Shown here piece after piece: positions 10,001 to 49,077 of a stretch of DNA of 55,900 nt. The first letter of the stretch is position 1. The number at the start of each line of letters is the position of its first letter. The stretch is from Pleurocapsa minor HA4230-MV1. GTDB lineage: Bacteria > Cyanobacteriota > Cyanobacteriia > Cyanobacteriales > Xenococcaceae. The notes below the pieces were generated by a model, which made no database searches, was not told the origin of the DNA, and saw only the letters and a list, made by a program, of their open reading frames with translations. The translations under genes and the position numbers were made by a program. The stretch is from NCBI GenBank assembly GCA_019359095.1, contig JAHHHZ010000004.1:1-55900 (forward strand), in the 5' to 3' direction.

Positions 10001-11841
10001 AGATAATCTTCTTGTTTAATGCGTCGATCTAATTCTTTTTGTTTGAGTTCTAAATAAGCTTCTGCTAATTGATTAATCGCCTCATTCAAAAACGCAGCAC
10101 TTCCCATTGCTGGTTCGCAAATTTTTAAATTGAGAATATCATCAGCAGTTTTATCTTTGAGTAATTCTTTGAGAGAATATTTAACCAAACAACGAGTTAG
10201 AGATTCTGGAGTGTAGTAAGAAGCGGAATTTTGTCTATCTCTTCCTGCTAAACGATAGATAAAAGTACCCTTGGGATAGCATTTAGGCGTACCATCATCA
10301 TTGAAAACTCGTTCGTCATCGGTATAGTTTTCTAAATCTGGTAACTTAACAAAATAAGCCACTTTTAATTCATCAGTATTTTTATCATCGGCTTTCTTAA
10401 CCTCATACAAATCTTCTTCGGCAAAAAAGCCCCGAAAACAGAGCAAAGCTTCGTAAACTGCACCTAATTGGTTAATTCCTAACTGAGCATAGGAAATACG
10501 CCCTCTTCTTTTACCTTTACTTGCCCTAGAAAGAGACATCAACTCAATCACGCGACGCAAAACCACATTGCGAAACTTGACTTTATTGAGTATGGATAAA
10601 CGTTCGGGATCGAAAAGATGACTTTTTAACGCCTTGAGTTCAAAAGTATCGTGGGTAACTTCTTTGCGTTCTAAGTTAAGACTAGATTGCTCATACTCTA
10701 ATTCGGGAAATCCCTCCCAAACCAACTTGAACAGCTTTTTAATCGAAGCATCAATAAAATAGCCCTCTGTATCTTCAGTCGTGCGTAACTCTGCTTGCTC
10801 CAAATTTCGCAGAAACTCCAAACTATAACCCTGGCGGTAAATATCCGAATTCATCGGCGCATAACCCAATTCCCGACGCGCCTCGATATAAAACAGAAAC
10901 AACAAGCGATACATATACCGCAAGCATTCTAGGGTTAACTGTCCCTCATGCAGCTTTCCCTTGTATACCCCTTCCTTGAGCTTATTTTGCTTATACCAAA
11001 CCGCTTCATTCCCCAGTAACTCAATGGACTCTCGCAAGGCATACTTAAGATCGTCGGAGACAGAAAAGGCGTGTTTGTGAGAATTCTCATCCAACTCATC
11101 CAGTAAAGCCGTTCCCTCACTAGGACAGGTATGTTCGCGATGGAGTAAAATCGCTTTAGCTTGCAGAACATCATTGTCTAGACGCGCCAGAATTTCCTCC
11201 AAGTCAAACCGCAGCAACCGCGAAGCATTCCACTTAAAGCGATCTAACAAAACTATTTGGTGAATACCAGCTAAAATAACCCAACGGGGAGGATCTTCTT
11301 GAGCAAAAATATAGTCTGATATTAAATCCTCGAAGTCGATGTTGAGTAGTTCGGGATTAGGAAGGCGCGGTGATGGGTTAGTATCGTTAGTTGCATAATT
11401 TAGATTAAATTGCGCCTCGTTTAAACTTAGAGAAAGGACATCAACGGCTTCTTGTGAGTCAGAAATAGCTTCAATAATCCAAAATAAAGGCTGTCCGCTA
11501 CTCTTATTAACCTCCGCAATCACTGGAATTATCTCGTCTTCATCCAAAACTTTTTCAGTCGGTTTAAACTCATAACCCAGTACAGAGAAAAATTTACTAA
11601 ACCATTCTCTTTGAAGCAATAATCGCTCCTGAATATCCTTTTCCTGACTAATCTGACTGCGAGTTTTGAAATAATCAACTTTTAGAGAGGCGATCGCGTT
11701 TGGAGGCGACTTATCGCCTGTTAACTCTGCTTTTTCATTCCAGCGTTTGACAACATCTTTAAGATCGTTCTGTAAAATAGCATCAAGATAATGGTGGGAA
11801 TAAAATTCATTCTCGTTGATAATTCCAGTTAAAATAGCCAT
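7054..11841 (-). CDS. Eco57I-like N6-adenine DNA methyltransferase (DrmMI / type IIG-like)
   Basis: 1595 residues. A specificity or coupling region of about 500 residues precedes [16 protein letters not shown], the SAM-binding motif [16 protein letters not shown] (about 575) and [20 protein letters not shown] (about 635). The catalytic NPPW tetrad in FILGNPPW is near 948. The last 600 residues probably contain target recognition. This is the layout of large Eco57I-type adenine methylases such as DISARM DrmMI, BREX PglX and type IIG enzymes. The helicase neighbours favour DrmMI; no pglZ or brxC is present, which argues against BREX. No nuclease motif was recognised in the N-terminus. The gene begins 51 bp after the SNF2-like helicase stop and its TGA overlaps the next ATG. 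Predicted role: host DNA marking, so that the system discriminates self from phage DNA. Confidence 0.87.
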
Positions 11842-11892
11842 GCTTTTTAAGTAATAAATAATAGGGAATAGGTAATAAGTTAGGGTTATTAA

Positions 11893-14781
11893 TCATTCAC
11901 TACTGCTTAAAACTGCGACAATTTTTATATAAGGAACTTTCTCGGTAATAGTGCTTTCTTCTACCCAAGAGTAGTAATCGTCAAAAATGCGCTTGATACG
12001 GTTTTGCTCTTTCTGCTTCTTACTCTCTGTAATCGTATTTATATTCTCGAACTTCAGTTCAAGCTGTCGATTGTGTTCCCATCTAAGCTGCTCTAGGCGA
12101 TCTAATTGCTGAGAAAGTATGGGATTAATGCGATCGTTATATTCTTTGTCTGCTGCGAGAATATTTTTGGTCGCCTGATCCACAGCTTGCGATCGCAATT
12201 TTAGTAAAGACTCATCTATCGGTTGATTAGTATTGGGAATTGGTTCATTCCCTAAATTAGTGCGATCGCGTGTGGCAGTAAATTCTTCAACCCTGACAAA
12301 TTTATTTTTCTCAAACACTACCCCCAACCACTTGTTGATCAAAGGTTGCCCTCGGCGGTTAGGAATCACTCCAGAGATAATAAATACAACTTCAGTCGGT
12401 GCTAATTTATCACCTAAAGTAATTACAGGAGCTTGATGACGACCAAATAAAGTTACTCCCCTATCGTTGAGCCAAGTAACTATTGGATGTAATTCCCAGA
12501 GATACTGCAACGAAGACCAACTATCTTCAGCACGTCTGGCTTCATCTAAACCAAGTGCGATTGCGACTTTATCTGCCGATAACCTTAATGGTTCATTCTT
12601 TTCAGGTAAAATCTCTCTGGGAAAGCGTTTATAGCGATCTCGTAACTCTTTCGGCATGGTTAACTCAATTAAGAGTTCATCTTCAAGAATAGATAACTGT
12701 AAATCTTGCTCCTGTTTATATTCTTCTAAAGCAGCTTTTACATAACTAAAATCATCTTGGAATAAGCTAGGCATTTCAGCAATGTTTTCATCTCCTACCC
12801 GCGTCTCCCGGTCATCGCGTTGCCGTATCTCAACAACTGGCTCATCTAACAAAGCAAAGAAATCAAAATCATCATTTTTTGGCTGTTTGGGTTCGAGGGA
12901 GCTAGCAAAATCTTCCGCCGATGTTCCTGATTCAATAGCTTGGGAAGTAATCCTTATTTCTTCATCAACATCAAATACCCCCATAAATACGGAGGGATCG
13001 CCAATATTCTTAACCGCTTGTTCATCCTTGACCAATAGTACCTGAATAATTCTCTCAACCTCATCCATCCGAGAATTAGTGGAACGAGTTAATAAATAAC
13101 GAATCTGTGGTTGTTCTTCTTGTCCATAGCGATCGATCCGACCATTACGTTGCTGTAACGCCATTAAAGACCAGGGAAGATCAAAATGAATTAATCGATG
13201 GGATAAATAATGCAGGTTAATTCCTTCTGAAGCCACATCCGTAGCAATCAACAATCTGACAGGAGACTGTTCGTTACCAAAATCCTCAATAATCCGCATC
13301 AAATCAACATCAGACATACTTCCGTCCAATGTTGCGAGCGCATTTTCTTTGAGAGACAAATCCTTAGCTAAATTCTTCTCAAGAAAGCGCATTGTCTCCA
13401 AACGCTCGGTAAATATAACAATACGGTCTTTTGAGTCTTTCCCCTTCCAAGCAAATTCATCTTGGCTTTTGCCTTCGATCACAGACAATAACTTTTGATA
13501 TTTAGAAAACTCCGAAGCAGTAACTTGCTTTAAAACAGACTGCAAAACTTCCAACTCAGCAATGTCCTTATCTTGTGTAGACGAATCGCTATTCTTCTCT
13601 ACTTTCTTGATGCGTCTAGTTAGCGTTTCCAAACAAGCCATCGGACTAGATAACATTGCCTTGAGCAAGGTTGTTTTAAACAACATCCCTGCCTTCCCTT
13701 TTTTATTGATCGAGGGGAGTTTCAAACTATCGAGTATCTCAAAAGCTGACTCTTCCAAATTAGAAGCATTACTCTCAATTGCGATCGCGTTTCTTTCGGG
13801 AAAATGTTTGGCTAACTGATCCTTGACATCTTTTTTGAAACGACGGACATAGAGATCTCGTATTTCGCTTTTACTATAGTCTTGTTCAGATGCGATCGCT
13901 GTTGGATCGAGCATATTCATCAAGCTAGCAAAACTTTCTGCCCGACCATCATGAGGCGTAGCCGACAGCATAATCAAACTGTCAGAACGAGTTGCCAGTC
14001 TTTCGGCTAATTTAGCTCTTAAAGAGGTACTTTGTCCTTTTCCGCGACGCGCTACATTATGCGCCTCATCAATAACAATGACATCCCAGTAAGCGTTTTC
14101 AATATAAGTACGATACTCGCGATCCTGCTTGAGAGTATCTACAGAAACTATCGCTTTATCGTAATAGTGAAAGGGATTGTGATTGGTGGGAATGCGCGAT
14201 CTAATTCTTTGAATTCCTACTGAGTCTAAACGTACTAAAGGAATAGTAAAACGCGACCAAAACTCCTTCTGAAATTGAGTTAACATACTTTTAGTTGTTA
14301 CTACTAAAATGCGTCTTCCTTTACCTCGTCGAATCAATTCTGAAACTAAAATCCCCGCTTCTAAAGTCTTACCCAAACCTACTGCATCAGCAATTAATAG
14401 CCGTTGACGAGGCATTTTTAAAACTTTCAAACTCGGGTCTAGCTGAAAAGCCAAGGTATCCATCGCTGCCTTATGACCAATGTGGAGATTAGAGTCGGTA
14501 GGCGCAGTCTGTTTTAAATTACCTTCAATGAATAATAATGATTTTAAATAACCAGAAGAATTATCAGCAACTAACTTTATTTCTTTGGGATCTAAAACAA
14601 CCAAATCATCTTCTAAATCGACGACAAATTGTGCTATTTGATGTTTGATAAAATCACTAATACCAATAACTTCTATCACTACCCTACTTCCAGCAGCAGC
14701 TTTGAGAGTTTTACGTATCAACCATTCAGAATCGCGTACAACAATTTTAGCCCCTGGTGCAAGTACGGCAGAATTGACCAT
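11893..14781 (-). CDS. SNF2/SF2 helicase, DrmD-like
   Basis: 962 residues. Motif I ADAVGLGKT (131-139), DEAH box (238-241, in IVIDEAHNVARRGKGQ), LSATPHDGR (motif III region), and motif VI QQRNGRIDRYGQ (about 543-554) give a complete SNF2-type SF2 ATPase. The GLGKTLEAG form and the C-terminal extension match the helicases named DrmD in class 1 DISARM. It is the first gene of the leftward operon, directly upstream of the methyltransferase, as in class 1 DISARM. There is no clear Shine-Dalgarno before the ATG. The upstream AT-rich stretch 14782-14880 must hold the promoter, but I could not assign -35 and -10 boxes with confidence. An RapA-like or DISARM-unrelated helicase is possible, but the gene order makes DrmD more likely. 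Confidence 0.85.
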   Translation of the reverse strand: MVNSAVLAPGAKIVVRDSEWLIRKTLKAAAGSRVVIEVIGISDFIKHQIAQFVVDLEDDLVVLDPKEIKLVADNSSGYLKSLLFIEGNLKQTAPTDSNLHIGHKAAMDTLAFQLDPSLKVLKMPRQRLLIADAVGLGKTLEAGILVSELIRRGKGRRILVVTTKSMLTQFQKEFWSRFTIPLVRLDSVGIQRIRSRIPTNHNPFHYYDKAIVSVDTLKQDREYRTYIENAYWDVIVIDEAHNVARRGKGQSTSLRAKLAERLATRSDSLIMLSATPHDGRAESFASLMNMLDPTAIASEQDYSKSEIRDLYVRRFKKDVKDQLAKHFPERNAIAIESNASNLEESAFEILDSLKLPSINKKGKAGMLFKTTLLKAMLSSPMACLETLTRRIKKVEKNSDSSTQDKDIAELEVLQSVLKQVTASEFSKYQKLLSVIEGKSQDEFAWKGKDSKDRIVIFTERLETMRFLEKNLAKDLSLKENALATLDGSMSDVDLMRIIEDFGNEQSPVRLLIATDVASEGINLHYLSHRLIHFDLPWSLMALQQRNGRIDRYGQEEQPQIRYLLTRSTNSRMDEVERIIQVLLVKDEQAVKNIGDPSVFMGVFDVDEEIRITSQAIESGTSAEDFASSLEPKQPKNDDFDFFALLDEPVVEIRQRDDRETRVGDENIAEMPSLFQDDFSYVKAALEEYKQEQDLQLSILEDELLIELTMPKELRDRYKRFPREILPEKNEPLRLSADKVAIALGLDEARRAEDSWSSLQYLWELHPIVTWLNDRGVTLFGRHQAPVITLGDKLAPTEVVFIISGVIPNRRGQPLINKWLGVVFEKNKFVRVEEFTATRDRTNLGNEPIPNTNQPIDESLLKLRSQAVDQATKNILAADKEYNDRINPILSQQLDRLEQLRWEHNRQLELKFENINTITESKKQKEQNRIKRIFDDYYSWVEESTITEKVPYIKIVAVLSSSE

Positions 14782-18460: not shown

Positions 18461-18556
18461 TACTTATATGGATGAAGAAACACATTATTTTTTACCTCGT
18501 TGACCATCCTGTTCTGGAAACCGAACAAATATATAAACAACGCAATCATAAACACA

Positions 18557-19639
18557 ATGACAACTACACTACAACAAACCCAAACCCAGAATAACTGGGA
18601 AAGGTTCTGTCAGTGGGTAACAAGCACTAACAACCGCATCTATGTTGGTTGGTTCGGAGTCTTGATGATCCCCACCCTCCTAGCAGCCACAACTTGTTTT
18701 CTCATCGCCTTTGTCGCAGCACCTCCTGTAGACATCGACGGAATCCGCGAACCCGTAGCAGGTTCACTACTATACGGAAACAATATCATCTCTGGTGCAG
18801 TTGTTCCTAGCTCCAATGCAATCGGTCTTCACTTCTACCCAATTTGGGAAGCAGCATCCTTAGATGAGTGGTTATACAACGGTGGCCCTTACCAATTGAT
18901 TATTTTCCACTTCTTGATTGGTGTATTCTCATACCTCGGTCGTCAGTGGGAACTATCATTCCGTTTAGGAATGCGCCCTTGGATCTGTGTAGCTTACTCA
19001 GCACCTGTATCCGCAGCCACAGCAGTATTCTTAATCTATCCTTTAGGACAAGGTTCATTCTCTGATGGTATGCCTCTTGGTATCTCTGGTACGTTCAATT
19101 TCATGTTGGTCTTCCAAGCAGAACACAACATTTTGATGCACCCCTTCCATATGTTGGGAGTAGCAGGTGTATTCGGTGGAAGCTTGTTCTCTGCAATGCA
19201 CGGTTCACTAGTAACATCTTCCTTAGTACGTGAAACAACTGAAACCGAGTCTCAAAACTACGGTTACAAGTTCGGACAAGAAGAAGAAACCTACAACATC
19301 GTTGCAGCGCACGGCTACTTCGGTCGTCTAATCTTCCAATACGCATCCTTCAACAACTCCAGAAGTCTACACTTCTTCCTCGGAGCATGGCCTGTAATCG
19401 GCATTTGGTTCACAGCAATGGGTATCTCCACAATGGCGTTCAACCTGAATGGATTTAACTTCAACCAGTCCGTAATGGATTCTCAAGGACGTGTAGTCAA
19501 CACCTGGGCAGACATCTTAAACCGAGCCAACCTTGGTTTTGAAGTAATGCACGAGCGTAATGCACACAACTTCCCATTAGACTTGGCTAGTGGCGAACAA
19601 GCTCCTGTAGCAATAAGCGCCCCTGCTATCAACGGCTAA
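18557..19639 (+). CDS. psbA: Photosystem II reaction-centre protein D1
   Basis: 360 residues from ATG at 18557, the canonical D1 length; an in-frame upstream start is rejected because MTTTLQQ is the conserved N-terminus. All functional residues are present: Tyr-Z Y161, D170, E189, H190, H198, H215, H272, H332, E333, H337, D342 and A344, after which CtpA removes the tail [16 protein letters not shown]. Residue 130 is Gln, the form usual in low-light or constitutive D1 copies. D1 sits in the thylakoid membrane and binds the P680 chlorophylls, pheophytin, QB and the Mn cluster. The gene is complete, but it lies between two broken transposase regions, so this copy may be an accessory member of a psbA family. 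Confidence 0.98.
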
Positions 19640-21363: not shown

Positions 21364-21457
21364 CCCATTTCTTCAATAGTTTATCGTGATCTGTAGACTA
21401 AGCGTGTCCTAAAGAGTACTGCTATGCATATCTTCTAAGGCGGAGCGCGATCGCCTA

Positions 21458-22240
21458 TCAAATACCATTGCCATCAGAATTGGCAAATTGTTGAGTATCA
21501 GATTCAGATTTAAGCCAAGATTTAGTCGTTTGAATCAGTTGCTTAATCTTGATACTTATCTCCGAACCATTTTTAATGATTAAAGAAGCAAAGTTATCTG
21601 GAGTAGGCTGGACAAAGCTCTCGGTGATCACAGCCGAAGATTTCTGACCATTGACACTAGAAGTTACGAGCTTCCTAACAAAGGTCGGTTGATAAATAGC
21701 ATGAGCGTAAAATATTTCATTCTTATCAATAGCTCTATCGCCAGTGAGAGATTTATAGACAGCTAGGAACTGTTTGCAGAAACAGTCAGCAACGTTGTAG
21801 TAAGAATAATTCTGAAGAAAAGTCAAACCAGCGTAGCCACTACATTTAAGCCGAAAAGGTAATTGAGAAAGGGGTTTGTTGTTATCGTCTAAAAACCAAA
21901 CTATGACATAGCTGAATGCTTTATAACCTTCCGCATCATGTTTCTGTTTATCGTAGGGAAGAGTCTCAAAATCATTGCTCATCAGGGCTTGAGAACGATT
22001 GAGAATTAAGAGCTTGGGCGATTTGGTCAACAAAAGAGTTTCTTGAGTACCATCACGAAACTCATGTTCGACGGGCTTCCAAGCATCAGTTAATTCAAAC
22101 TTGGCTAATTCGGCATTAGTTGAAGTAATGGCAATACCAAACTTTTTATCTGAAGCGTTAATAAATTGCGCGTAAGGAATTGAGGATAATTCACCGAGAA
22201 ATTCCTCAGTGTTAAAGCCGAAATCGTGATTATTTTGCAT
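21458..22240 (-). CDS. Conserved module protein, DUF5895-like (copy A)
   Basis: 260 residues and very close to the 259-residue protein at 48253-49032: the two share KKFGIAITSTNAELAKFEL, TQETLLLTKSP, YKAFSYV and RKLVTSSVNGQKSSAVIT. From memory it resembles cyanobacterial proteins listed as DUF5895; no function is known and I see no catalytic motif. No signal or membrane segment. It is the sixth gene of the leftward set in module A and the last gene of the leftward set in module B. Its strict conservation across both suggests a core role for the element, perhaps DNA binding or replication control. Confidence 0.7.
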   Translation of the reverse strand: MQNNHDFGFNTEEFLGELSSIPYAQFINASDKKFGIAITSTNAELAKFELTDAWKPVEHEFRDGTQETLLLTKSPKLLILNRSQALMSNDFETLPYDKQKHDAEGYKAFSYVIVWFLDDNNKPLSQLPFRLKCSGYAGLTFLQNYSYYNVADCFCKQFLAVYKSLTGDRAIDKNEIFYAHAIYQPTFVRKLVTSSVNGQKSSAVITESFVQPTPDNFASLIIKNGSEISIKIKQLIQTTKSWLKSESDTQQFANSDGNGI

Positions 22241-22354
22241 GGTCTTTATGAAGATAATATTAATACTATTGTACTATTCAACTGCTCAACAGCGTGGTTG
22301 GATATGCGTGGGCTTGCATCGCATAGTTTGATGAAACCCACGCATCCCCCACGC

Positions 22355-22657
22355 TCAATTCTTACCAGTTTGGCGGAATCTGCGCCCTCGGAGTTTACGC
22401 CCTCGGATAGAGGCAATGAGCGCATCTGTTTGATCACCAGGCAGAATTTGAACGTTGAAGAATAAAGGATGGCGAAAGTTGGTTCCAAGGTGGGGAATTG
22501 CGCCGATAATCGCGGTTTTGACTTGATCGAGGCTTGAACCGATAAAACAATTGTTCTGTGGGTCGCAAAAAATAGTGACGACGGAATCAGCAAGAGGATT
22601 GTTGAGGCTTGGCTCAACGGTTCTGATCTCAATTGAAAGTAAATATGTTTGAGTCAT
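22355..22657 (-). CDS. Conserved module protein, about 100 residues (copy A)
   Basis: 100 residues, paralogous to 49078-49383: LLSIEIRTVEP, TIFCD, AIIGAIPHLGTNFRHPLFF and QI.PG.. are shared, as is a basic C-terminus (GRRFRQTGKN here). Family not recognised. A longer overlapping frame on the same strand was rejected because only this one is conserved between the modules. It lies between the DUF5895-like gene and the split DPSKPW genes. The basic tail would suit nucleic-acid contact, but this is a guess. Confidence 0.7.
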   Translation of the reverse strand: MTQTYLLSIEIRTVEPSLNNPLADSVVTIFCDPQNNCFIGSSLDQVKTAIIGAIPHLGTNFRHPLFFNVQILPGDQTDALIASIRGRKLRGRRFRQTGKN

Positions 22658-22716
22658 TTTATAGAGTGAGAGATTGTAGACTGAAAAGATTTAAACGATC
22701 GCGACTTTAAAGATTT

Positions 22717-22902
22717 TTAATTGGTCTGGGAAATCAAGTAAATATTTCCATCGGCATTAGCATCAGGAAAGTTAGCACGAATAAAATCTAAACAATCGCA
22801 CTCCAGCTCAAATTCTTCAATAGTTAAAAATTGGTTGTTACGGGATTTAAGTTGAGGATTAGGAGTATCGCATGACCAATAACTACCGTTAGTCGTCAAC
22901 AT
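22717..22902 (-). CDS. Second half of the 'DPSKPW' protein, or separate small gene
   Basis: 61 residues, aligning with the C-terminal half of the protein at 16096-16470 (NNQFLTIEEFELECDCLDF against NNQFIIIEKFERQIEALKF; GNIYLISQ against GYISLISE). Its ATG overlaps the stop of the preceding ORF by seven bases. Either this is a coupled gene pair or one gene was split by a frameshift; the fused homologue supports the second view. Confidence 0.5.
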   Translation of the reverse strand: MLTTNGSYWSCDTPNPQLKSRNNQFLTIEEFELECDCLDFIRANFPDANADGNIYLISQTN

Positions 22903-23054
22903 CGGATACCAACCATTTGTGCAGCATAAATGATCGTCACAAAAAGCCCTAAAGGATTAGCTTCGCGTCCGATCGCTTCGGATCTCGTCTTGAACTCCGT
23001 AACTGTGTGCCAAGTTTTAGAAGGATCGACGTTGGGAACTTCTACTAGATACAT
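22896..23054 (-). CDS. First half of the 'DPSKPW' protein, frame-disrupted by a small repeat
   Basis: 52 residues from ATG at 23054 (an in-frame upstream start was discarded because homology begins at MYLVEVPNVDPSKTW). It aligns with IIEIPNQDPSKPW of the protein at 16096. After SEAIG the DNA carries ACGCGAAGCTAATCCTTTAG, a piece of a dispersed cyanobacterial repeat seen again near 30520 and 53860. Beyond it the frame ends early and the second half continues in another frame. Probably a decayed gene of unknown function. Confidence 0.5.
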   Translation of the reverse strand: MYLVEVPNVDPSKTWHTVTEFKTRSEAIGREANPLGLFVTIIYAAQMVGIRC

Positions 23055-23085
23055 GTTGATTAAAGAAGAGAAAAGAAAGGAAAGA

Positions 23086-23280
23086 TTATTTAATTTTCTG
23101 GAGAAAGAGTTTAAGAGTTTTGACTTGATAGGGTTTGGCATCACTGTTATCTTTTCCAGACTGAACAATGGCTATTGGATAAAAAGGATGTTGCCAGACG
23201 GTGTGACTGCCCTTACCGCGTTTGGTCAGCCGAATAAAACCTGCTTTGGATAAGCGAGACTTAAGGATTCGGTTTTTCAT
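23086..23280 (-). CDS. HicA-like small protein (copy A)
   Basis: 64 residues from ATG at 23280. The pattern MKNRILKSRL, AGFIRLTKRGKGSHTVWQHP, ending KPYQVKTLKLFLQ, is that of HicA-like mRNA interferases, with the G-S-H catalytic His motif and the usual small double-stranded-RNA-binding fold. The paralogue at 49386-49586 is nearly the same. The ATG overlaps the upstream gene's stop (ATGA). No HicB-type antitoxin lies beside it in either module; the neighbours are the coiled-coil protein upstream here and a zinc-ribbon protein in module B. It may be a domesticated RNA-binding protein of the element rather than a toxin. Confidence 0.65.
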   Translation of the reverse strand: MKNRILKSRLSKAGFIRLTKRGKGSHTVWQHPFYPIAIVQSGKDNSDAKPYQVKTLKLFLQKIK

Positions 23281-23672
23281 AGGAAGTAGGGCAGAGAGGG
23301 TTTGTTGTTTAGAGAAATTAACTCGGCTCTTTTTTCGAGATAAGATTCGTTTAAATGCAGCAAGAATTTGAAGTATTCCGCTGCCCAAAATTTAGCCTGG
23401 TTGTAATTAGGTTCTGATGCCAAATTTCTTTTGAGTATTTCGACACGAAGGCGATTCTCTAAAGTCAATTGAGTATTGTTCGAGGGAGCAAGATTCACCT
23501 TGGATTGATTGGATTGTCGAAGTTGTCTAATTTGGTCTTCAAGACGTTGACACTCATTGAACAGAATCAAATAGTCTTCTAGATGATTGACGGCAAGTTG
23601 GGCAGCTTTATGTGGATACTGATCGAGATAAACTTTTAATTGCTGAAGTTCAGCATCAATATTTGGATTCAT
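23277..23672 (-). CDS. Helical/coiled-coil module protein (paralogue of 34097-34333)
   Basis: 131 residues from ATG at 23672. The segment LKVYLDQYPHKAAQLAVNHLEDYLIL matches LKRHLEKYPEQAPQLAINHFEDFVLL of the 78-residue protein at 34097-34333, and is followed by a predicted coiled coil (CQRLEDQIRQLRQ). The remainder (ILKRNLASEPNYNQAKFWAAEYFKFL) is unique to this copy. Function unknown. It is coupled by an ATGA overlap to the HicA-like gene. Its presence in both A and C links these two modules. Confidence 0.6.
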   Translation of the reverse strand: MNPNIDAELQQLKVYLDQYPHKAAQLAVNHLEDYLILFNECQRLEDQIRQLRQSNQSKVNLAPSNNTQLTLENRLRVEILKRNLASEPNYNQAKFWAAEYFKFLLHLNESYLEKRAELISLNNKPSLPYFL

Positions 23673-23759
23673 GGCGAGATGGATGATTTTGTAGAGGGTG
23701 GTTAAGAAGTAAAGCCATAAGAGCGATCGCATTACTTGTGCGATCGCATCACGGAGCGA

Positions 23760-24479
23760 CTAAAAGATGTCTTCAGTAGAGATCAGATGAGACTCATCGA
23801 ACAGACAAATTTGGTCTTCAGCCACCCAAAGACGCTCACCATAGGTTGACTCGTAACTGGGGTTGACTAGCCAGTAGTACCAAGCAGTTTCAGACAAATA
23901 AGCTTCCGTAGAACGATAGAGTTCGTGATTGTATTGGCGACCGATAATTACAAAACTTGCCCATTCAGAATGATGTTCAGTCGCATCGATGACTTTAACG
24001 ATACTATCAAGCGCGAAACGAGCATGAGGAACATCGAGGGGATTTTGATCGCCAAACAAATCGCAGTCATTAGTTCTTTGATGATGAGTTTTGGCAGCCT
24101 GTTCAAACAAGCGACACCAACCACGTCCATTAGATTCTTGATAATCTTGGAAATGAGAGCATTGAGCGCAGGTATCAGAATAACGCTCCAGAGCCGATTC
24201 AACTTTCCAGAAACTAACTTCACCGTTAGTAATTTTGTATTTCCAATAAGGTTGATTGAGTAACTTTCCTGAATTCGTTTTGGACTCGACAAGCTCCATT
24301 GCGTAGACAGTAAATGGAGTAGAGGAATTATTTTTAAGAATAACTTGTTCATAGAAAACGAATAAAGGTTGTTCGCAACTATATTTGGTTTCATTGGGGT
24401 CTTGTGGGGGTACGAACTCTATGGTGATGAGTTCTCGTTCTTCTGCTTGTACTGTCTGTTTTTCGGCTAAATATGTCAT
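23760..24479 (-). CDS. Conserved module protein with Cys-rich centre (copy A, first leftward gene)
   Basis: 239 residues, paralogous to 49921-50631 (236 residues). Both start MTYLAEK and share LITIEFVPPQDPNET, PLFVF, STPFTV, PYWKYK and the end LISTE-(D/E)-IF. A cluster C-x2-C-x-H-F-Q-D-Y-Q-E-S-N-G-R-x-W-C plus a later T-N-D-C-D-L looks like a zinc or metal site and is fully conserved. No family recognised. It is the first gene read leftward from the divergent control region in both modules, with AGAGGT upstream of the ATG, so it is likely made early and may regulate the set. Confidence 0.7.
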   Translation of the reverse strand: MTYLAEKQTVQAEERELITIEFVPPQDPNETKYSCEQPLFVFYEQVILKNNSSTPFTVYAMELVESKTNSGKLLNQPYWKYKITNGEVSFWKVESALERYSDTCAQCSHFQDYQESNGRGWCRLFEQAAKTHHQRTNDCDLFGDQNPLDVPHARFALDSIVKVIDATEHHSEWASFVIIGRQYNHELYRSTEAYLSETAWYYWLVNPSYESTYGERLWVAEDQICLFDESHLISTEDIF

Positions 24480-24762
24480 GATGTGAATTGACCTCTTAAT
24501 GGGGGGTATAAAAGCGATCGCATTGTTTTCTCAGGACGAGCGATCGCTTTTAATCTAAAAAATTTTGCATCACTTTAGTTAACTTATTTGGCTTGCGGAC
24601 TAATGCTTTCCGTTTCCTCATAGTATTTATATTGACATACTGCTAACTGATTGTCAACATATTGATTGTCAGTTGCTTGATATTTCAAATATTTGGTATA
24701 GTGGATATCAAGTAGTTAATCGACAATAATTGGGGGTGAACTTGACAACAACAGGCGTTTTA
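24480..24762. promoter_or_regulatory. Divergent control region of module A
   Basis: Rightward promoter: TTGCTT (24673-24678), 18-nt spacer, TATAGT (24697-24702). The -10 is embraced by CTTGATAT (24676-24683) and ATATCAAG (24705-24712), an inverted repeat placed to block RNA polymerase. Two direct repeats TGATTGTCA lie upstream at 24648 and 24663, 15 bp apart. This suits autoregulation by the adjacent small regulator. Confidence 0.55.
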
Positions 24763-25020
24763 ATGAACAGAACATATATAGACATACAACTTTGGTGGCC
24801 GAAAGATGATGAAGGAAAGCCATTATCCGTTTATGCAGTCTATAAAACAATTGAGGGAACAAGAAATGAGGTAACTAGACATACCCTAACTAGAGCTAAA
24901 GATGGGTTATTAGAAAAAGCAGATATTTCAAATCTCAAAGCCTTGGCTCGTTTATGTTCTATATGGAGTGGCGAAAACCTGTCTGTTGATGACTTGATAG
25001 TAGAAGAATCTGATAATTAA
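24763..25020 (+). CDS. Small regulator-like protein of module A
   Basis: 85 residues from ATG at 24763; GTG at 24736 is an alternative start, and neither has a good ribosome site. The end (ISNLKALARLCSIWSGENLSVDDLIVEE) resembles the C-terminal half of Cro/CI-type (XRE) regulators, LC.aL.c.pgDLi, as seen in full in the module B regulator at the same position. The first half (IDIQLWWPKDDEGKPLSVYAVYKT) is not a recognisable helix-turn-helix. It lies between the divergent promoter region and the primase, so repressor or copy-control function is inferred from position. Confidence 0.55.
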   Translation: MNRTYIDIQLWWPKDDEGKPLSVYAVYKTIEGTRNEVTRHTLTRAKDGLLEKADISNLKALARLCSIWSGENLSVDDLIVEESDN

Positions 25021-25068
25021 TGTTGATTGATTAACTTTACATTTTGTATTTCACAGCCATAAATAGCA

Positions 25069-25108
25069 AAAGCGATCGCTTCCCGTCGAAAAGTTAGCGA
25101 TCGCCTTT
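25069..25108 (+). terminator. Hairpin between regulator and primase leader, module A
   Basis: AAAGCGATCGCT, a 16-base loop, AGCGATCGCCTTT. Each arm carries a HIP1 octamer. The same hairpin, with the loop motif CCGTCGAAAAGTT kept, is at 51282-51320 in module B. It could end regulator transcription or act as an attenuator ahead of the leader ORF. Confidence 0.6.
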
Positions 25109-25140
25109 GAACCAATATCCGCATAAAGGAATTAGTAGTT

Positions 25141-25233
25141 ATGTACATTTTAAATGGTGGAGTCCAAAACTGCACCTTGACTTTCAAACAACATCAAGAA
25201 AACCGCTCGAACCAGTTGGGAGGTGCGATGTGA
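25141..25233 (+). CDS. 30-codon leader ORF upstream of primase A
   Basis: ATG at 25141 with AAGGA 10 nt upstream; the peptide begins MYILNGGVQNC and ends RSNQLGGAM. Its final ATG-TGA overlaps the primase GTG start. The DNA is almost identical to 51353-51445 (one difference seen, ATTTTAAAT against ATTCTAAAT), while the flanking primase genes differ much more. Inside it, GCACCT (25172-25177) is complementary to AGGTGC (25221-25226), which overlaps the primase ribosome site GGGAGG. Translation of the leader would open this pairing. A cis-regulatory role is inferred; an independent peptide function is also possible. Confidence 0.6.
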   Translation: MYILNGGVQNCTLTFKQHQENRSNQLGGAM

Positions 25234-28094
25234 TTGGATTTATCACACCATTCCAGATTTTAGATTACCTAGAGCGCTTGAACGTAGTCAAAGAAACTTC
25301 AAATGAATACCATTGTACCTGTCCTGTCTGTGGAGATGGTGGGTTCAAAATCAACAAGAAAAACGGTTCGTACCAAGCGTTCAAGTGTGGCTGTGAAATT
25401 AAGGATATTCGGGAAGCGATAAGTCCATGGTCTGAAGCTTCTTCTCAAGGGTCAAGGGTAAGGGGGCAAAGGGACGAGGAGATAGGGAGACAAGGAGAAA
25501 GGGAGAAAATCAAGCTTGCCCAACTTAATGCCTCTGCTGAGAACGCGCCAAAGCCAGAGTTCTCGCCTATTCCAGAATGGTTAATCAAACAAGGAGTACC
25601 TGTTTCAGCAGTAGAAACCCGTTATTGGTACTCAAAAACTCAATGGGTAAGTAGATTTGAGTGGACAACAGAAGAGAGAAAAAAAGCCAAAACGATCAGA
25701 CAGGGGCATATTAAGTCCAATGGCTTAATCCAATGGAGTAAAGGCGCAAAGGATTGGAGAGCATACAAACTATCTGAAGCAGTTAAGCATTGCCAGGGAA
25801 AATGGGTCTTAGGTTTAGAAGGAGAAGGATGTGTCGAGACAGCCAGAGCGATCGCCTTGGCAGCAATAACATGGCAGGGGTCGAACTGGACACCCAAGGC
25901 AATTGTCAATGATTTGAGCGCCTTAAAAGACGCAAAAGCAGCAGGATTAGTTTATTTTCCCGATCATGATAAAGCGGGGCAGAAAAAAGCAGAATTAGTC
26001 AAATCAGCCTGTTTTAAAGTCAACTTACCATGTCTGATCATCTCGCCGACAGATGTATGGAGTGAAATGCCAGCTAAAGGAGATCTTACGGACTTTGTAG
26101 AGGTGCATCCGCATTTTAGTACTGATGAACTGATATCGAGATTAGAAAAAGCGATTGCTCAGGCGATAAAAGTCGAGTCCTTACAAAAATTAACGGCGGC
26201 TTTTGTGAATGAAGATTCATACACAAAACGCGCCTTAACATCAGAATCAGCGGAAGGCGATCAAGAAAAATCGCGGGAGTTACCGAACTGGTCACAGTCG
26301 GATTTGGCTCAGTGGTTAGCAGAGAAATATCGAAGTAAACTAGCCTGGAACGCAGAGCAACAGCAATGGTATCGTTACGGCGCGCAAACAGAGGGGATTT
26401 GGAGTATTGAACCAATTGAATTTGTCGGGCAGCTAGTCAAGTCAGAAGTAGAAGCGATCGCAATGGAAATTGCCCAAACAAGTAAAAATAAGAAAAAACC
26501 AAACTACAGTGTATCGATGCTCAATGGAGCGATCGCATTATTAAAAATGGATTTAGCCGTGAGAACCTGGGACGAAGCGAAAGGAGTATTGCCATTGCTC
26601 AATGGGGTATTAGACCTTGAAACAAGGAAACTTTTATCCCACAGCCCCTCCAACCGATTAACCTGGTGTCTGCCCTACGCCTATAATCCACTCCTAACTT
26701 GTGATCCGATTCAAGATTGGTTACTCGAAATGTGCAGGGGCGATCGCCAATTAATTGAATTGATGAGAGCCTATCTACTGGGAATCGTAACAGGTAGAAC
26801 TGACTGGCAGAAATACTTAGAACTAATCGGGCCAGGAGGAACAGGCAAGTCAACTTTAACCAGATTAGCGATCGCTTTGGTGGGGCAAGAAAATGTACAT
26901 ACCACTACCCTCAAGAAACTAGAAGGAGAAAAGTTTGAAACCGCCTCGATAGCAAGAAAACGCTTAGTCCTAATCAACGATTCAGAAAGATACGCAGGAG
27001 AGGTGGGTAAGCTTAAAAACCTCACAGGTCAGGATACTTTACCTTATGAAGTAAAGTACCAGCAGTCCAAAGGTGGATTCAATCCTGATGCCTTGGTAAT
27101 TGTTTCTACCAATGAAGTAATCCAAAGCAGTGATTACACATCGGGATTAGCAAGAAGAAGAATTTCAATCCCGATGCTCAAAGCGATTAAAAGCGATGCG
27201 CTCCGCGCTGGCTTCGCCAATCGCCAAAAGAATCTAATCGAATATCAGAATGGTGAGATGGTAGGGGAGTTTGTACCATACATTCCAGGATTACTTAATT
27301 GGGTATTATTGATGGATGAAGTTGAAGCTACCAGAATCATCAAAAACTACGAGACGGCAGTACCATCACTCTTGGCAATGAAGGCACAAACGTTAGTAGA
27401 AACTAATCCGATTGCCGACTGGTTAGATAGCAAAGTAGTTTATGACCATGCTGCCAAAACCAATGTTGGTGTAGCCAAAAGGGACAAAGATAACAATTCA
27501 GCCCAATGGTATTTAAATACTAACAAATGGTTATATGCCAGTTATGCCGAACATTGCCATGACACAGGTACTCGCGCACTTTCCTTACGCCGCTTTGTAA
27601 ATTTATTATCTGACTTGGGCAAAAATCAATTGGGGTTGGATATCGAGCGATCGCGCGATCGCTTTGGGTCATATTTCACTGGCTTAAAGATTCGCTCCGA
27701 AGAAGACGATAAGCCGCCTATGATTACGGGTGAGCAGAAATACCACAATATTCAGCCAGCCCGTAGCAACAATAATATAAATACAATACATAGAGTTTGG
27801 ACGATGGTGATAAATAAAGTAACTACTGCGATCGAGAGAATCATTGATGATGCTCTTGGTAGTAAATTAGAAACGGAAGTAGAAACAGAAACAAATCAAA
27901 AATCAAATCTAGATTTAGAGACAGAAAATGTTGAAGAAATTGCGGTAGGAGATCGCATAACTATTTCTGATTGTCCTGGGCATTGGAGTTGGGCCTCGCC
28001 GTTTAAGGTCACAGCAATAGAAGGAAATTGGGTAGCATTAGAGTTAGTAGACAATTTGATTGAGATGGGTCGGTTAGAAAAATGTCGAACTTAA
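25230..28094 (+). CDS. Primase-helicase of module A (zinc ribbon, TOPRIM, SF3 helicase; P4-type)
   Basis: 954 residues from GTG at 25230. This start is preferred to an upstream one because the same GTG follows the conserved leader in module B. Domains: CHC-type zinc ribbon (C29, C31, C34, C53, C55); DUF3854/TOPRIM-like region with GLEGEGCVETARA and VYFPDHDKAG; DUF5906/P4-type SF3 helicase with Walker A GPGGTGKST, LVLINDSERYAG, and the STNE...LARRR sensor/arginine region; then a variable linker and a conserved SH3-like tail (VGDRITISDCPGHWSWASPF). Such proteins start replication of plasmids and satellites. Two palindromic insertions sit in frame (26195-26234 and about 27199-27222). Confidence 0.87.
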   Translation: MIGFITPFQILDYLERLNVVKETSNEYHCTCPVCGDGGFKINKKNGSYQAFKCGCEIKDIREAISPWSEASSQGSRVRGQRDEEIGRQGEREKIKLAQLNASAENAPKPEFSPIPEWLIKQGVPVSAVETRYWYSKTQWVSRFEWTTEERKKAKTIRQGHIKSNGLIQWSKGAKDWRAYKLSEAVKHCQGKWVLGLEGEGCVETARAIALAAITWQGSNWTPKAIVNDLSALKDAKAAGLVYFPDHDKAGQKKAELVKSACFKVNLPCLIISPTDVWSEMPAKGDLTDFVEVHPHFSTDELISRLEKAIAQAIKVESLQKLTAAFVNEDSYTKRALTSESAEGDQEKSRELPNWSQSDLAQWLAEKYRSKLAWNAEQQQWYRYGAQTEGIWSIEPIEFVGQLVKSEVEAIAMEIAQTSKNKKKPNYSVSMLNGAIALLKMDLAVRTWDEAKGVLPLLNGVLDLETRKLLSHSPSNRLTWCLPYAYNPLLTCDPIQDWLLEMCRGDRQLIELMRAYLLGIVTGRTDWQKYLELIGPGGTGKSTLTRLAIALVGQENVHTTTLKKLEGEKFETASIARKRLVLINDSERYAGEVGKLKNLTGQDTLPYEVKYQQSKGGFNPDALVIVSTNEVIQSSDYTSGLARRRISIPMLKAIKSDALRAGFANRQKNLIEYQNGEMVGEFVPYIPGLLNWVLLMDEVEATRIIKNYETAVPSLLAMKAQTLVETNPIADWLDSKVVYDHAAKTNVGVAKRDKDNNSAQWYLNTNKWLYASYAEHCHDTGTRALSLRRFVNLLSDLGKNQLGLDIERSRDRFGSYFTGLKIRSEEDDKPPMITGEQKYHNIQPARSNNNINTIHRVWTMVINKVTTAIERIIDDALGSKLETEVETETNQKSNLDLETENVEEIAVGDRITISDCPGHWSWASPFKVTAIEGNWVALELVDNLIEMGRLEKCRT
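26195..26234. repeat. 40-bp palindrome, family copy 3 (inside primase A)
   Basis: GGCGGCTTTTG, stem TGAATGAAGATTCATACA, CAAAACGCGCC. It is translated as AAFVNEDSYTKRAL in the linker between the TOPRIM and helicase parts, where primase B has unrelated E/Q-rich sequence. TTAA occurs on both sides (ATTAAC and TTAACA). Confidence 0.8.
27194..27222. repeat. 24-bp palindromic insertion splitting a HIP1 site in primase A
   Basis: Primase B and fragment C read GCGATCGCC here. Primase A reads GCGAT, then GCGCTCCGCGCTGGCTTCGC plus CAAT, then CGCC. The added 24 bp encode ALRAGFAN between K-S-D and R-Q-K-N-L. The insert is a copy of a dispersed cyanobacterial palindrome (GCGCTCC...GGCTTCGCC). Confidence 0.75.
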
Positions 28095-28153
28095 AAAAGA
28101 AGAAAAAAGCTCAAGAATTATCCCACCTAATGGTAATTATAGATGTTCTGATT

Positions 28154-28246
28154 GTGACAGCATTTTTCAAAACTACTGAAAAAAAAGACTGAAAAAAAAA
28201 TTCGGTAATAATGATTTCTGGAGGTAGTTTTAAATTTTGCCGTCAC
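28154..28246 (+). mobile_element. MITE copy 2 (93 bp)
   Basis: Left end GTGACAGCATTTTTCAAAAC, right end AATTTTGCCGTCAC; A-rich core with no ORF. The right end stops one base before an ATG in frame with mntA. The 14 bp TAATTATAGATGTT just upstream also precede the copy at 55496. Confidence 0.75.
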
Positions 28247-28313
28247 CATGATCCAGAATATGTATAATCAATCTTTATTTAAGAAACATACCAATACATT
28301 ACAAAAGATTAGG

Positions 28314-28646
28314 ATGAAATTGACCAATATAAAATTCCCAATCAAACAGATCGAAGAATTTTGCGATCGCTGGCAAATTATTGAATTTGCTTTGTTTGGT
28401 TCTGTTCTTCGTGTTGATTTCCGTCCTGATAGCGATATCGACGTGATGGTGCAATTCCATTCAGATGCTCATCCTACCCTGTTCGACTTAGCAGATATGG
28501 AAAATGAACTAAAGGTAATTTTTCAGCGAGACGTAGACTTAGTAACTCGCAAAGGTATTACAGGTAGTCGAAATTATCTGCGTCGTAATAATATTCTTGA
28601 CTCTGCTCAAATTATCTATGCCAAAAGATCCCCAATTTCTACTTGA
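28314..28646 (+). CDS. mntA: MntA-type minimal nucleotidyltransferase (antitoxin)
   Basis: 110 residues from ATG at 28314; an in-frame ATG at 28248, just after the MITE, would add 22 residues not typical of the family. The nucleotidyltransferase signature G-S-V-L-R-x-D-F-R-P-D-S-D-I-D-V (GSx10DxD) is intact. MntA enzymes neutralise HepT by AMPylating a tyrosine near its active site. The stop overlaps the hepT start by 29 nt, as usual for this pair. The pair sits between primase A and a duplicated primase 3' fragment, so it may stabilise the element. Confidence 0.9.
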   Translation: MKLTNIKFPIKQIEEFCDRWQIIEFALFGSVLRVDFRPDSDIDVMVQFHSDAHPTLFDLADMENELKVIFQRDVDLVTRKGITGSRNYLRRNNILDSAQIIYAKRSPIST

Positions 28647-28956
28647 TATGCTGCTCTCTGCCAAAATTGCTGTTGAATACGTAGCAGGGCGATCGCGAGA
28701 GGATTTGATAAGCGATCTTCAACTTCAGGATGCTGTGATTCGACGATTTTTAATTATTGGAGAAGCAGCAAGACGTGTTTCTGAAGAAACCAAACAAAAC
28801 TTACCGAAAGTTCCCTGGACAGCTATTAACGGAATGCGTAATCGGTTGGTTCATGAATATGATGATATCGATCTTGATGTTATTTGGGATACCTTGATTA
28901 AGAGTCTGCCTATTTTGATTAAAGAACTAGAGAATGTTGTTTTACTGGAAGAATAG
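28618..28956 (+). CDS. hepT: HepT-type HEPN ribonuclease (toxin)
   Basis: 112 residues from ATG at 28618 (MPKDPQFLLDML). An all-helical HEPN domain with the Rx4H motif and following Tyr in MRNRLVHEYDDID, the site targeted by MntA AMPylation. Activity: RNA cleavage when not inhibited. Its TAG stop (28954-28956) is followed without a gap and in the same frame by CTC AAA AAC CTC, the coding frame of a primase C-terminus, so read-through of a single stop would fuse the two. Confidence 0.9.
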   Translation: MPKDPQFLLDMLLSAKIAVEYVAGRSREDLISDLQLQDAVIRRFLIIGEAARRVSEETKQNLPKVPWTAINGMRNRLVHEYDDIDLDVIWDTLIKSLPILIKELENVVLLEE

Positions 28957-30072
28957 CTCAAAAACCTCACAGGTCAAGATACCCTGCCTTATGAAGTAAA
29001 GTACCAGCAATCCAAAGGCGGATTTAATCCTGATGCTTTAGTAATTGTTTCTACCAATGAAGTAATCCAAAGCAGCGATTACACATCAGGATTAGCAAGA
29101 AGAAGAATCTCCATTCCCATGCTAAATCTAATCAAAAGCGATCGCCAGAAGAACCTGATTGAGCATCAGAATGGGGAATTGCTTGGGGAGTTCGTACCAT
29201 ACATACCAGGGTTACTTAATTGGGTACTGGCAATGGATGAAGTTGAAGCCACCAGAATAGTTAAAAACTATGAGACGGCAGTACCATCGCTCTTGGCCAT
29301 GAAGGCACAAACGTTAGTAGAAACCAATCCCATTGCCGACTGGTTAGATAGCAAAGTAGTTTATGACCATGCTGCCAAAACTAATGTTGGTGTAGCCAAA
29401 CGAAACAAAGACAACAATTCAGACCAATGGTACTTAAATACCAATAAATGGTTGTATGCTAGTTATGCCGAACATTGTCATGACACAGGTACTCGTGCGC
29501 TTTCCTTGCGTCGCTTTGTGAATTTATTATCTGACCTAGCTAAAAATCAATTGGGATTGGATATCGAGCGATCGCGCGATCGCTTTGGCTCTTATTTCAC
29601 TGGCTTAAAGATTCGCACCGAAGAAGATGACAAACCGCCTATGATTACGGGTGAGAAAAATTTATCCTTAGTTCAAAATAGTCAACCAGCCAATCTTAAT
29701 AATACCAATGTCGTGAATAGAATTTGGACAATGGTGATGGATAAAGTAACGACGGCGATTGAAAGAATTATTGATGATGGTCTTAGCAATGAATCAAATG
29801 ATTCACAAGAAATTGAACAAGAACAAGACAAATTAACCGTGGCGCGTTCTAGGTGGAAAGTTTCTCACCCAGAAGCCGCCACCACTAAGACTGAGATAGA
29901 AGCAGAAAATAATCAAGAAATAGCGGTAGGCGATCGCGTAACCATTTCTGATTGTCCAGGTCATTGGAGTTGGGCCTCGCCATTTACCGTTCGAGCAATA
30001 GAATCGAATTTGGTAGCATTAGAGTTAGTGGACGAGTTAATTGAAATGAGTCGGCTAAAAAAGTGCTGTTGA
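28957..30072 (+). pseudogene. Primase-helicase C-terminal fragment (copy C)
   Basis: Open frame of 371 codons matching primases A and B from LKNLTGQDTLPYEVKY to the SH3-like tail. It lacks the zinc ribbon, TOPRIM and Walker A, and has no proper start. Its body is closest to primase A (VVYDHAAKTNVGVAKR), but the 3' flank (GTGCTGTTGAGCAAACTATC) matches the region before 54906 in module B. It carries a 40-bp palindrome at 29841-29880 in the linker. Most likely a leftover of recombination between element copies. Confidence 0.85.
29841..29880. repeat. 40-bp palindrome, family copy 4 (inside primase fragment C)
   Basis: GGCGCGTTCT, stem AGGTGGAAAGTTTCTCACCC with mismatches, AGAAGCCGCC. It is translated within VARSRWKVSHPEAAT. 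This copy has drifted from the consensus. Confidence 0.65.
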
Positions 30073-30435: not shown

Positions 30436-30866
30436 AAGGGTTGTCGATTTGTCACCTTGCTTGGTGATTTGGGCAAGAATCAATTGGGTTTAGATATCAG
30501 GAGAGAGCGCGATTGGCGAAGCCAGCGCGCGACGCGAAGCTATATGCGAAGCGGTATCCTTTAGGAGTCCTTTAGGGGAGCGCATCGCTTTGGGTCATAT
30601 TTTGCGGGGCTAAAGATTCGAGATGTCAATGACACTTCACCACCACTAATTACGGAAAACTCTGAAGCAGGGTATGAGCTAGACGAGGATAAGTCTGTTA
30701 TCACAATAGGGGATTGTGTGACGGTAGAAGATGCGCCTAGCTATTGGTCGTGGGCGAGTCCTTTTAAAGTAGAAGCGATTGATGGAGAAATGGCAAAGCT
30801 TCAAATGGTGAGTGAATTAATAGAAATTAGTCGGTTGCAAAAATGCTTCAATACAGACTTAAAATG
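30436..30866 (+). pseudogene. Primase C-terminal fragment (copy D) with a repeat insertion
   Basis: RFVTLLGDLGKNQLGLDIRR matches primase B. After R-E-R-D the frame is broken by about 75 bp of palindromic repeat (30508-30582: TGGCGAAGCCAGCGCGCG..., GCGAAGCGGTATCCTTTAGG...). Then RFGSYFAGLKIRD and the SH3-like tail (IGDCVTVEDAPSYWSWASPF, ISRLQKC) resume. The insertion again splits a CGATCGC-type site. The final TGA overlaps the ATG of the small gene at 30864. Confidence 0.8.
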
Positions 30867-44350: not shown

Positions 44351-44376
44351 ATAAGAAGTATAGTACAATACTGTCT

Positions 44377-44772
44377 ATGAGTCAATCCTATAGACGAACA
44401 AATACTACTGTATCTTTAATTAATTACCACTTTATCTGGATACCTCGTCGTAGAAGAAAAGTGTTAGTTGGTGCTGTTAAAACTAGAGTCACTGAGTTGA
44501 TCTACGAAAAAGCTAACGAATTAGACTGCAAAATCATTAGTCTTGCCGTAGAACCTGAGCATATCCATCTTTTTCTCAACTGTTCTCCTGGCATTGCACC
44601 AAAACAAATCATGCACCGTATCAAAGGCTATTCATCTTATATATTGAGGAAAGAGTTTCCGCATTTAAAAAAGATGCCTAGTATGTGGACTAGGAGCTAT
44701 TTTGTCTCTACTGCTGGCAATGTTTCTAGTAGTACAATTGAGAAATATATAGCTGCTCAAGGGAAAGTTTAA
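44377..44772 (+). CDS. tnpA: TnpA, Y1 HUH transposase of IS200/IS605
   Basis: 131 residues, the normal length. HUH motif EPEHIHLFL (about 59-67) and catalytic Tyr in STIEKYIAAQ near the end. It carries out single-strand transposition with a 5'-phosphotyrosine intermediate. It is divergent from tnpB, with 26 bp between starts. Intact. Confidence 0.95.
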   Translation: MSQSYRRTNTTVSLINYHFIWIPRRRRKVLVGAVKTRVTELIYEKANELDCKIISLAVEPEHIHLFLNCSPGIAPKQIMHRIKGYSSYILRKEFPHLKKMPSMWTRSYFVSTAGNVSSSTIEKYIAAQGKV

Positions 44773-44835
44773 CTGGGGCTAAAGCCCCCGTGTCGCAATT
44801 CATCCAAGGTCTAAAGACGCTTGGCTTTCTTGCTC

Positions 44836-49032: not shown

Positions 49033-49077
49033 AGTAATTTAGAGAAATATATTAATACAATTGTACTATTTAGATGA

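Follow-up and report, generated by a model that had tools for sequence, protein, structure and literature searches.

An overlapping leader upstream of plasmid replication initiators in Pleurocapsa minor and its relatives: a candidate element of copy-number control

Two initiator genes with a short overlapping leader

The first 55,900 nucleotides (nt) of contig JAHHHZ010000004.1 of the cyanobacterium Pleurocapsa minor HA4230-MV1 (assembly GCA_019359095.1), hereafter the window, contain two putative plasmid replication initiator genes that are each preceded by a short open reading frame (ORF), the leader, which is the subject of this study. In module 1, a hairpin with highly iterated palindrome (HIP1) arms (25069-25107), which we assign to the minus strand and read as a putative antisense-RNA terminator, is followed on the plus strand by a small hairpin with TCC/GGA arms (25118-25130) around the Shine-Dalgarno (SD) sequence of the leader (25125-25131), by the leader itself (25141-25233; 30 codons plus TGA, peptide MYILNGGVQNCTLTFKQHQENRSNQLGGAM*) and, across a 4-nt stop/start overlap, by the gene of a P4-family primase-helicase (25230-28094). 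The overlap lies in ATGTGA (25228-25233), the last leader codon and its stop, which shares positions 25230-25232 with the GTG start of the initiator. Three plus-strand elements of the leader recur throughout this text: E1 (25156-25162) and E2 (25170-25178), the 5' and 3' arms of a leader hairpin, and E3 (25220-25227), the initiator SD, to which E2 is complementary and which is its alternative partner.

Module 2 repeats this order at 51,282-51,445, with its HIP1-armed hairpin at 51282-51320 (minus strand) and, on the plus strand, a leader with the same peptide (51353-51445), E1 (51368-51374), E2 (51382-51390), E3 (51432-51439) and an initiator (51442-54360, GTG start at 51442) whose protein shares 71% identity with its module 1 counterpart. 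The only Pfam domains in the two initiators are D5_N and DUF5906, and their best NCBIfam match is TIGR01613. An earlier note on this DNA, made from the sequence alone, had described the shared succession of hairpin, ribosome site, 30-codon ORF and 4-nt overlap, all of which we found in both modules, and had pointed to a complementarity between leader and primase ribosome site; GCACCT (25172-25177) and AGGTGC (25221-25226) are indeed exact complements, and E2 is the best of 93 SD-pairing windows in module 1 and ranks third of 93 in module 2.

Relatives of the leader and the genes behind them

A degenerate pattern of the leader matched 13 times in 7 of 27 genomes of the family (its reversed version not at all). 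In a genome collection it picked out three loci, which belong to Pleurocapsa sp. CCALA 161 and to a Myxosarcina metagenome-assembled genome; viral contigs gave no match to an exact pattern. We then trained a covariance model on 17 leaders and searched 388 genomes of the order with it. It returned 25 matches in 8 genomes, from two genera of one family, and by our own count these represent 22 distinct full leaders besides two duplicates and one copy truncated at its 5' end; full leaders first found in this way are G120 C4, G162 C7 and G244 C32 end in our notation of genomes and contigs. The genome from which the window comes has two more copies, on contigs C12 and C5. All statistics below cover the 21 leaders with an ORF of their own, or fewer where stated; G135, whose leader runs in frame into its gene, was excluded from everything except the count of HIP1-armed hairpins (22 loci), and alignment A3 comprises 17 leaders, with G233a omitted owing to an insert. 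An initiator N-terminus related to those of the window occurs at 20 places in the family, and we read a leader upstream of 18 of them (one 5'-truncated); G268 and G207 have such an N-terminus and yielded no leader in the covariance-model search. Out of 72,556 plasmid records, a single one contained a relative; Chondrocystis NIES-4102 plasmid3, a complete record of 149,096 bp, carries two leader loci, over neither of which a coding sequence is annotated in its incomplete gene table.

The leaders range from 27 to 46 codons and contain the initiator ribosome site within their 3' end, and 20 of the 21 overlap the following start codon by 4 nt. Their peptides are poorly conserved in the middle and show, in our own reading, a recurrent pattern of M(IT)YIL...(N/Y)CT or KCIS...F.QQ..NRLN..GGA. 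A P4-type primase-helicase follows 15 leaders (profile searches for both window genes and the Myxosarcina twin of G019, the rest placed by N-terminal similarity), a DnaD-like or O-like initiator three (G198w tested, phrog_6493 at E=2e-15; G162w and G162_C7 placed by similarity) and a DUF3854+VapE primase-helicase another three (all G120 leaders; G120d tested, two placed by similarity). As judged from these profile matches and similarities, the cassette stands before three unrelated types of initiator. In G135 (locus L014, G135:C80, reverse strand, ORF 330-1535), the leader is fused in frame into an ORF of 402 residues that has no Pfam or PHROG match and of which a part resembles DnaD-like initiators by eye. 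The sequence at L006 (G000:C5) begins like a leader (MYILNGEGKN...) and lacks E2; it precedes what appears by eye to be a transposase gene and is probably a broken copy.

Rfam gave no match at gathering score in the window; the best permissive match at 24900-25500 was ctRNA_pT181 on the minus strand (22.3 bits versus 56 needed, E=2).

Selection on the leader RNA

In A3, the covariation of the E1:E2 hairpin amounts to 0.410 compared with 0.198 +/- 0.033 in shuffled alignments (reached by 0 of 500), with 14 doubly changed cells versus 5.2 in shuffles and at most 0.223 for slid registers, and because kinship among leaders can inflate such values, we used synonymous recoding as a second control. 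Summed over 21 leaders, the native E1:E2 energy is -199.0 kcal/mol versus -75.2 +/- 10.7 kcal/mol for synonymous recodings, of which the lowest in 2000 draws was -116.8, with a negative z in 21/21 leaders and P<0.05 in 14/21. On the fixed E2, E1 takes one of three registers (12, 7 and 2 leaders) chosen by best fit, and when E1 of one leader is set against E2 of another, the paired fraction drops from 0.91 to 0.82. The third base of one E2 codon is C throughout the 21 leaders though the codon encodes Cys, Asp, Arg or Gly, and where it encodes Cys it is TGC in 17/17 cases; sampled initiator genes have 58 TGC and 128 TGT codons. Across the family, covariation and synonymous controls support the view that selection acts on the leader RNA. 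The small hairpin at the leader ribosome site appears in relatives with arms such as TCCC/GGGA, TTCC/GGAA and GTTTC/GAAAC, and its energy lies below the mean of single-base shuffles in 21/21 leaders (mean z -2.2; module 1, -0.55).

Complementarity of the leader to the initiator ribosome site is likewise kept in most relatives, as 89% of the E2:E3 cells in A3 pair versus 37.5-69.9% for slid versions. E2 ranks first as partner of the initiator SD in 14 of 18 leaders (second in G233a and G244_C41, third in module 2 and fifth in G198w), one pair of the helix is G-C in 13 leaders, G.U in two and A-U in two, and unguided RNAalifold predicts the helix. Ensemble folding of the 21 leaders, for which we have no control set, leaves the initiator site unpaired with a probability of only 0.00-0.28 (mean 0.13).

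The HIP1-armed hairpin points to the opposite strand

An A.C mismatch in a stem on one strand corresponds to a G.U pair on the other, and substitution patterns can thus indicate on which strand a hairpin is maintained. Over the 22 loci, the HIP1-armed hairpins hold 19 cells that are A.C on the plus and G.U on the minus strand, none of the opposite class and five other mismatches, and the same count on E1:E2 gives 3 A.C and 19 G.U cells on the plus strand plus 11 others; these cells are not independent, and by distinct positions the A.C:G.U ratio is 6:0 for the HIP1-armed hairpin (our own count) and 3:6 for E1:E2. The finder of the HIP1 arms permitted C or T at one core position (22/22 loci fitted, none dropped for the opposite class), and the null for the asymmetry consists of strand symmetry and the opposite result on E1:E2, with only a handful of non-leader hairpins at hand. 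Two patterns with a variant in one arm, searched in the own genome, found three hairpins, namely those of the C12 and C5 leaders and one elsewhere.

The predicted hairpin is more stable on the minus strand at 16 of 22 loci (plus strand, 6/22), and its T-rich tail lies on the minus side (6.4 versus 3.8 T per 10). Given the mismatch asymmetry, the energies and this tail, the mRNA seems to be the place of action of E1:E2, and a transcript of the opposite strand that of the HIP1-armed hairpin. In module 1, the stretch from the hairpin to the initiator end has no minus-strand ORF of 100 codons, so a minus-strand transcript would be antisense RNA to the leader, and we infer the hairpin to be its terminator. 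A sense terminator or attenuator at this place was rejected on the grounds of the mismatch asymmetry and the minus-side tail.

Identity of the two leaders and mosaic copies

The two leaders of the window match at 92 of 93 positions, with the single difference in a first codon position (Leu TTA/CTA), and their third codon positions differ at 0/31 compared with 28/70 in the first 70 initiator codons, because of which their identity exceeds chance. This agrees with the earlier note in that the leaders are nearly identical and the primases more diverged. The leader is not generally near-invariant, as that note had it, since the C12 and C5 copies are only 68-71% identical to those of modules 1 and 2.

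These copies are mosaic. Modules 1 and 2 share 99% of the leader and 78% of the first 210 nt of the initiator, and, counted from the start of the initiator, their near-identical tract covers only -91 to +9 (one mismatch); their HIP1-armed hairpins differ at 3/39 positions and, in our own reading, the 35-36 nt between hairpin and leader ATG are largely different. Module 1 and C12 share 71% of the leader, 92% of the initiator start and 70% at 600-1400, whereas C12 and C5 are the same over the initiator start (210/210) and 69% identical further in. The stretch common to C12 and C5, which has a single mismatch between -71 and +577, gives way to sharp divergence on both sides, its left edge lying within the leader. 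By eye, the 5' half of the C5 leader resembles that of G233b and the C12 half that of G233a (the latter also by percent identity); the G233 sequences are the same as those of Pleurocapsa sp. CCALA 161.

Since leader and initiator histories are thus discordant, with mosaic copies and abrupt edges, short-tract recombination best explains the leader match as the simplest account of the sequences. The earlier note had taken this match as a sign of selection and had named recent gene conversion, with equally high similarity in neighboring DNA, as the counter-case. Neighboring DNA is not equally similar, the tract shared by modules 1 and 2 being only about 100 nt long, yet recombination is indicated all the same. 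We therefore rejected the identity as proof of selection, and the note's argument from identity to selection fails; its claim of selection on the nucleotide sequence holds by way of the relatives, through E1:E2 covariation and the synonymous controls, and not by way of the two copies. The idea that leaders on one replicon are kept identical was also rejected, because the two on Chondrocystis plasmid3 are different.

Upstream and neighboring genes

We listed same-strand ORFs of at least 55 codons ending no more than 260 nt before each leader. A small helix-turn-helix (HTH) gene precedes 10 of the 21 leaders and a ribbon-helix-helix (RHH) gene four, ending 89-192 nt upstream. Module 2 has an HTH regulator of the Cro/C1 type (HTH_26; 50886-51236, plus strand), and module 1 a plus-strand ORF of 96 codons from TTG (24730-25020; ATG at 24763) without Pfam match, whose product is similar to the upstream small protein of G244_C32e, which has no family match either. 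The ORF upstream of G244_C41 has no match, a piece of an IS1 transposase precedes G162w and an ORF of 410 codons G120_C4, and no upstream ORF was listed for G120d and G244_C31.

The initiators lie in two related multi-gene modules (21447-30072 and 48242-54994; matching blocks of 66-90% identity), and further pieces resembling the initiator 3' end are found at 28955-30065 and 30443-30667; by its appearance, the contig arose from two related plasmid backbones that fused. A near-palindromic 45-nt repeat occurs in five copies (at 18174, 20212, 26191, 39146 and 41229; 60-84% identical to the reference copy), one of them within the module 1 initiator gene. The same contig that carries these plasmid replication modules has a photosynthetic reaction-centre gene at 18500-19639 on the plus strand (Photo_RC, 1.2e-90). 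Three large defence-like genes occupy 767-14781 on the minus strand and comprise a DEAD helicase with an MZB domain, whose best match in PADLOC is DruE (1.3e-108), a type IIG restriction-methylase (1e-280) and an SNF2 helicase that matches DrmD best (4.9e-103), and 43058-47132, also on the minus strand, holds a cytochrome P450 gene (45843-47132), a TPS secretion-domain gene (44726-45850) and a TnpB-like gene (43058-44368).

Discussion

We consider it likely, with some reservation, that the leader controls the copy number of a plasmid through its replication initiator by a mechanism that is similar to that of plasmid R1 without being homologous to it; since the initiators differ, we do not assign it as a member of the R1 group. 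This proposal builds on the anatomy of the locus, the selection on its RNA and the strand assignment from substitution patterns, from which we infer an antisense RNA, a switch in pairing, repression by the upstream protein and an influence on copy number. In the free mRNA, the initiator ribosome site would be buried within structure at the leader's end, and initiator synthesis would require a ribosome that reads the leader up to its stop and then reinitiates at the start codon overlapping it. E2 could pair alternately with E1 or with the initiator site and so tune this coupling. An antisense RNA that starts inside the initiator gene or the leader and ends at the HIP1-armed hairpin would bind the leader and block its translation, limiting replication as copy number rises, and the small HTH or RHH protein encoded upstream would repress transcription like CopB in R1.

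Several observations weigh against this proposal. Unguided RNAalifold did not predict E1:E2, and modules 1 and 2 taken singly are not significant in the recoding test of this hairpin (P of 0.12 and 0.13) or in either of the two synonymous tests (P 0.12-0.16), nor is the module 1 region unusually stable (z -0.57). The synonymous control for E2:E3 (native -239.6 versus -150.1 +/- 10.8; P<0.05 in 14/21) is confounded with selection on E1:E2, the covariation of E2:E3 does not beat shuffles (130/500), and the helix is weak in G198w, G120_C4 and G162_C7. E1:E2 dominates the folding ensemble (on average 4.6 pairs versus 1.3 for E2:E3), and covering E1 leaves the initiator site buried (mean unpaired 0.11 versus 0.13), which is no clean switch. 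On the opposite strand, a promoter in the first initiator codons had at first seemed to score above shuffled sequences (mean count 7.95 versus 7.22; 21 loci) and is unsupported, as it does not go beyond coding constraint (sum 124 versus 122.2 +/- 6.1 for synonymous recodings; 15 loci). A terminator scan that permits loops of 3-8 only reported none at the module 1 hairpin, and HIP1-armed hairpins with a similar loop precede leaderless ORFs (L005, L019 and L021), for which reason this hairpin is a more general element. Finally, 7 of the 21 loci have no upstream HTH or RHH match and 3 of the 14 matches fall below Pfam cut-offs (G233b, G244_C35 and G162_C7), the overlap of G162w measures 35 nt, and the leader of G135 is fused in frame to its gene.

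Four other explanations deserve consideration. Recent gene conversion alone, with no special function of the RNA, is probably right for the identity of the two leaders, given the mosaic tracts of C12/C5 and of modules 1/2 and the free divergence of leaders in other copies; as an account of the whole it is very improbable, because covariation and synonymous controls across the family indicate selection at the RNA level. The earlier note had considered a translational or a transcriptional attenuator, and our data favor translational control of the initiator. A terminator-like hairpin ending 31-42 nt before the leader ATG, as found in the 21 leaders measured, would fit a transcriptional attenuator that cuts the sense mRNA short when the leader goes untranslated, but the hairpin stands upstream of the leader, whose translation could not easily act on it, its mismatches are A.C on the plus and G.U on the minus strand (19:0), and its T-rich tail is on the minus side; we regard this mechanism as quite unlikely.

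In translational attenuators of the ErmC or TnaC style, a nascent arrest peptide stalls the ribosome in response to an antibiotic or another ligand, and an E2 that pairs with either E1 or the initiator site has the layout of such systems. Yet the peptides vary in length from 27 to 46 residues with a poorly conserved middle, an E2 codon keeps its third position although its amino acid varies, and the downstream genes serve replication rather than resistance or metabolism, which leaves a low probability to ligand sensing, if perhaps the largest among these four. The same conservation of third positions speaks against the leader encoding a small protein with its own, Rop-like function in replication. 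Its recurrent peptide pattern would suit such a protein, and one of the control RNAs of Synechocystis plasmid pSYSA encodes Ssr7036, though a stop codon in ssr7036 is described to have left the effect on pSYSA copy number unchanged (PMC9978351); a protein of this kind thus appears very unlikely here.

Copy-number control by a coupled leader, the reading that we prefer, has counterparts among known plasmids. The copB-tap-repA locus of R1 (IncFII) is described as a small repressor gene, a leader ORF and a translationally coupled initiator under the antisense RNA CopA (PMC5717011). The loci studied here are similar in that often an HTH or RHH gene is followed by a leader and an overlapping initiator, with a putative antisense terminator, and they differ in their initiators, which are P4-primase, DnaD-like or DUF3854 proteins and not RepA of the IncFII type, and in their upstream regulators, which belong to varying families where they are matched at all. 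Plasmid ColIb-P9 likewise has a leader, repY, to which translation of its initiator is coupled. In ColIb-P9 and the other I-complex plasmids (repY-repZ, Inc RNA/RNAI), the folding of the RNA and a stem-loop antisense RNA, which acts through a kissing complex, are reported to govern initiator translation, and five nucleotides of RNAI separate the compatible IncK1 and IncK2 plasmids (PMC10724649). The Pleurocapsa leader would be in part alike in its working and differs in that its alternating element, E2, is a stem arm and not a loop.

Among cyanobacteria, the nearest precedent in the sources available to us is pSYSA of Synechocystis, where the short ORF ssr7036 lies upstream of the primase-helicase initiator slr7037 (CyRepA1) and is covered by asRNA1 (PMC9978351). 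What sets pSYSA apart is an ORF of 64 residues with an intergenic spacer between it and the initiator (PMC9978351), together with RNase E processing, an RNA-primer model and an initiator of the DUF3854 type (PMC10079941), a domain that the window initiators lack and that is present in G120d, the one searched of three similar G120 relatives. On Synechocystis pSYSX, antisense RNAs are reported to start ca. 25 nt inside the initiator genes slr6031/slr6090 (CyRepX) and to contain segments matching the initiator ribosome sites; the initiator is a different one, and the accessible part of that account mentions no coupled leader ORF (PMC10899382). Our own literature search, limited to an open-access subset, found no described coupled leader in cyanobacteria and returned only unrelated papers.

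To our knowledge, leader-coupled antisense control has been worked out in enterobacterial plasmids, where it is tied to particular initiators. In cyanobacteria, the same control logic seems to be an interchangeable cassette that serves unrelated initiators. We tentatively suggest, with somewhat less than even confidence, that one leader-plus-antisense module, under selection on its RNA, has come to stand before at least three unrelated initiator families and that recombination within the leader reshuffles control specificity separately from the initiator, which would make and break plasmid compatibility groups in Pleurocapsa-like cyanobacteria. If true, the cassette would be a compact copy-number part for cyanobacterial vectors, compatibility groups might be predictable from ca. 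100 nt of sequence, and these plasmids would offer a case in which recombination sets control specificity and the initiator on separate evolutionary paths.

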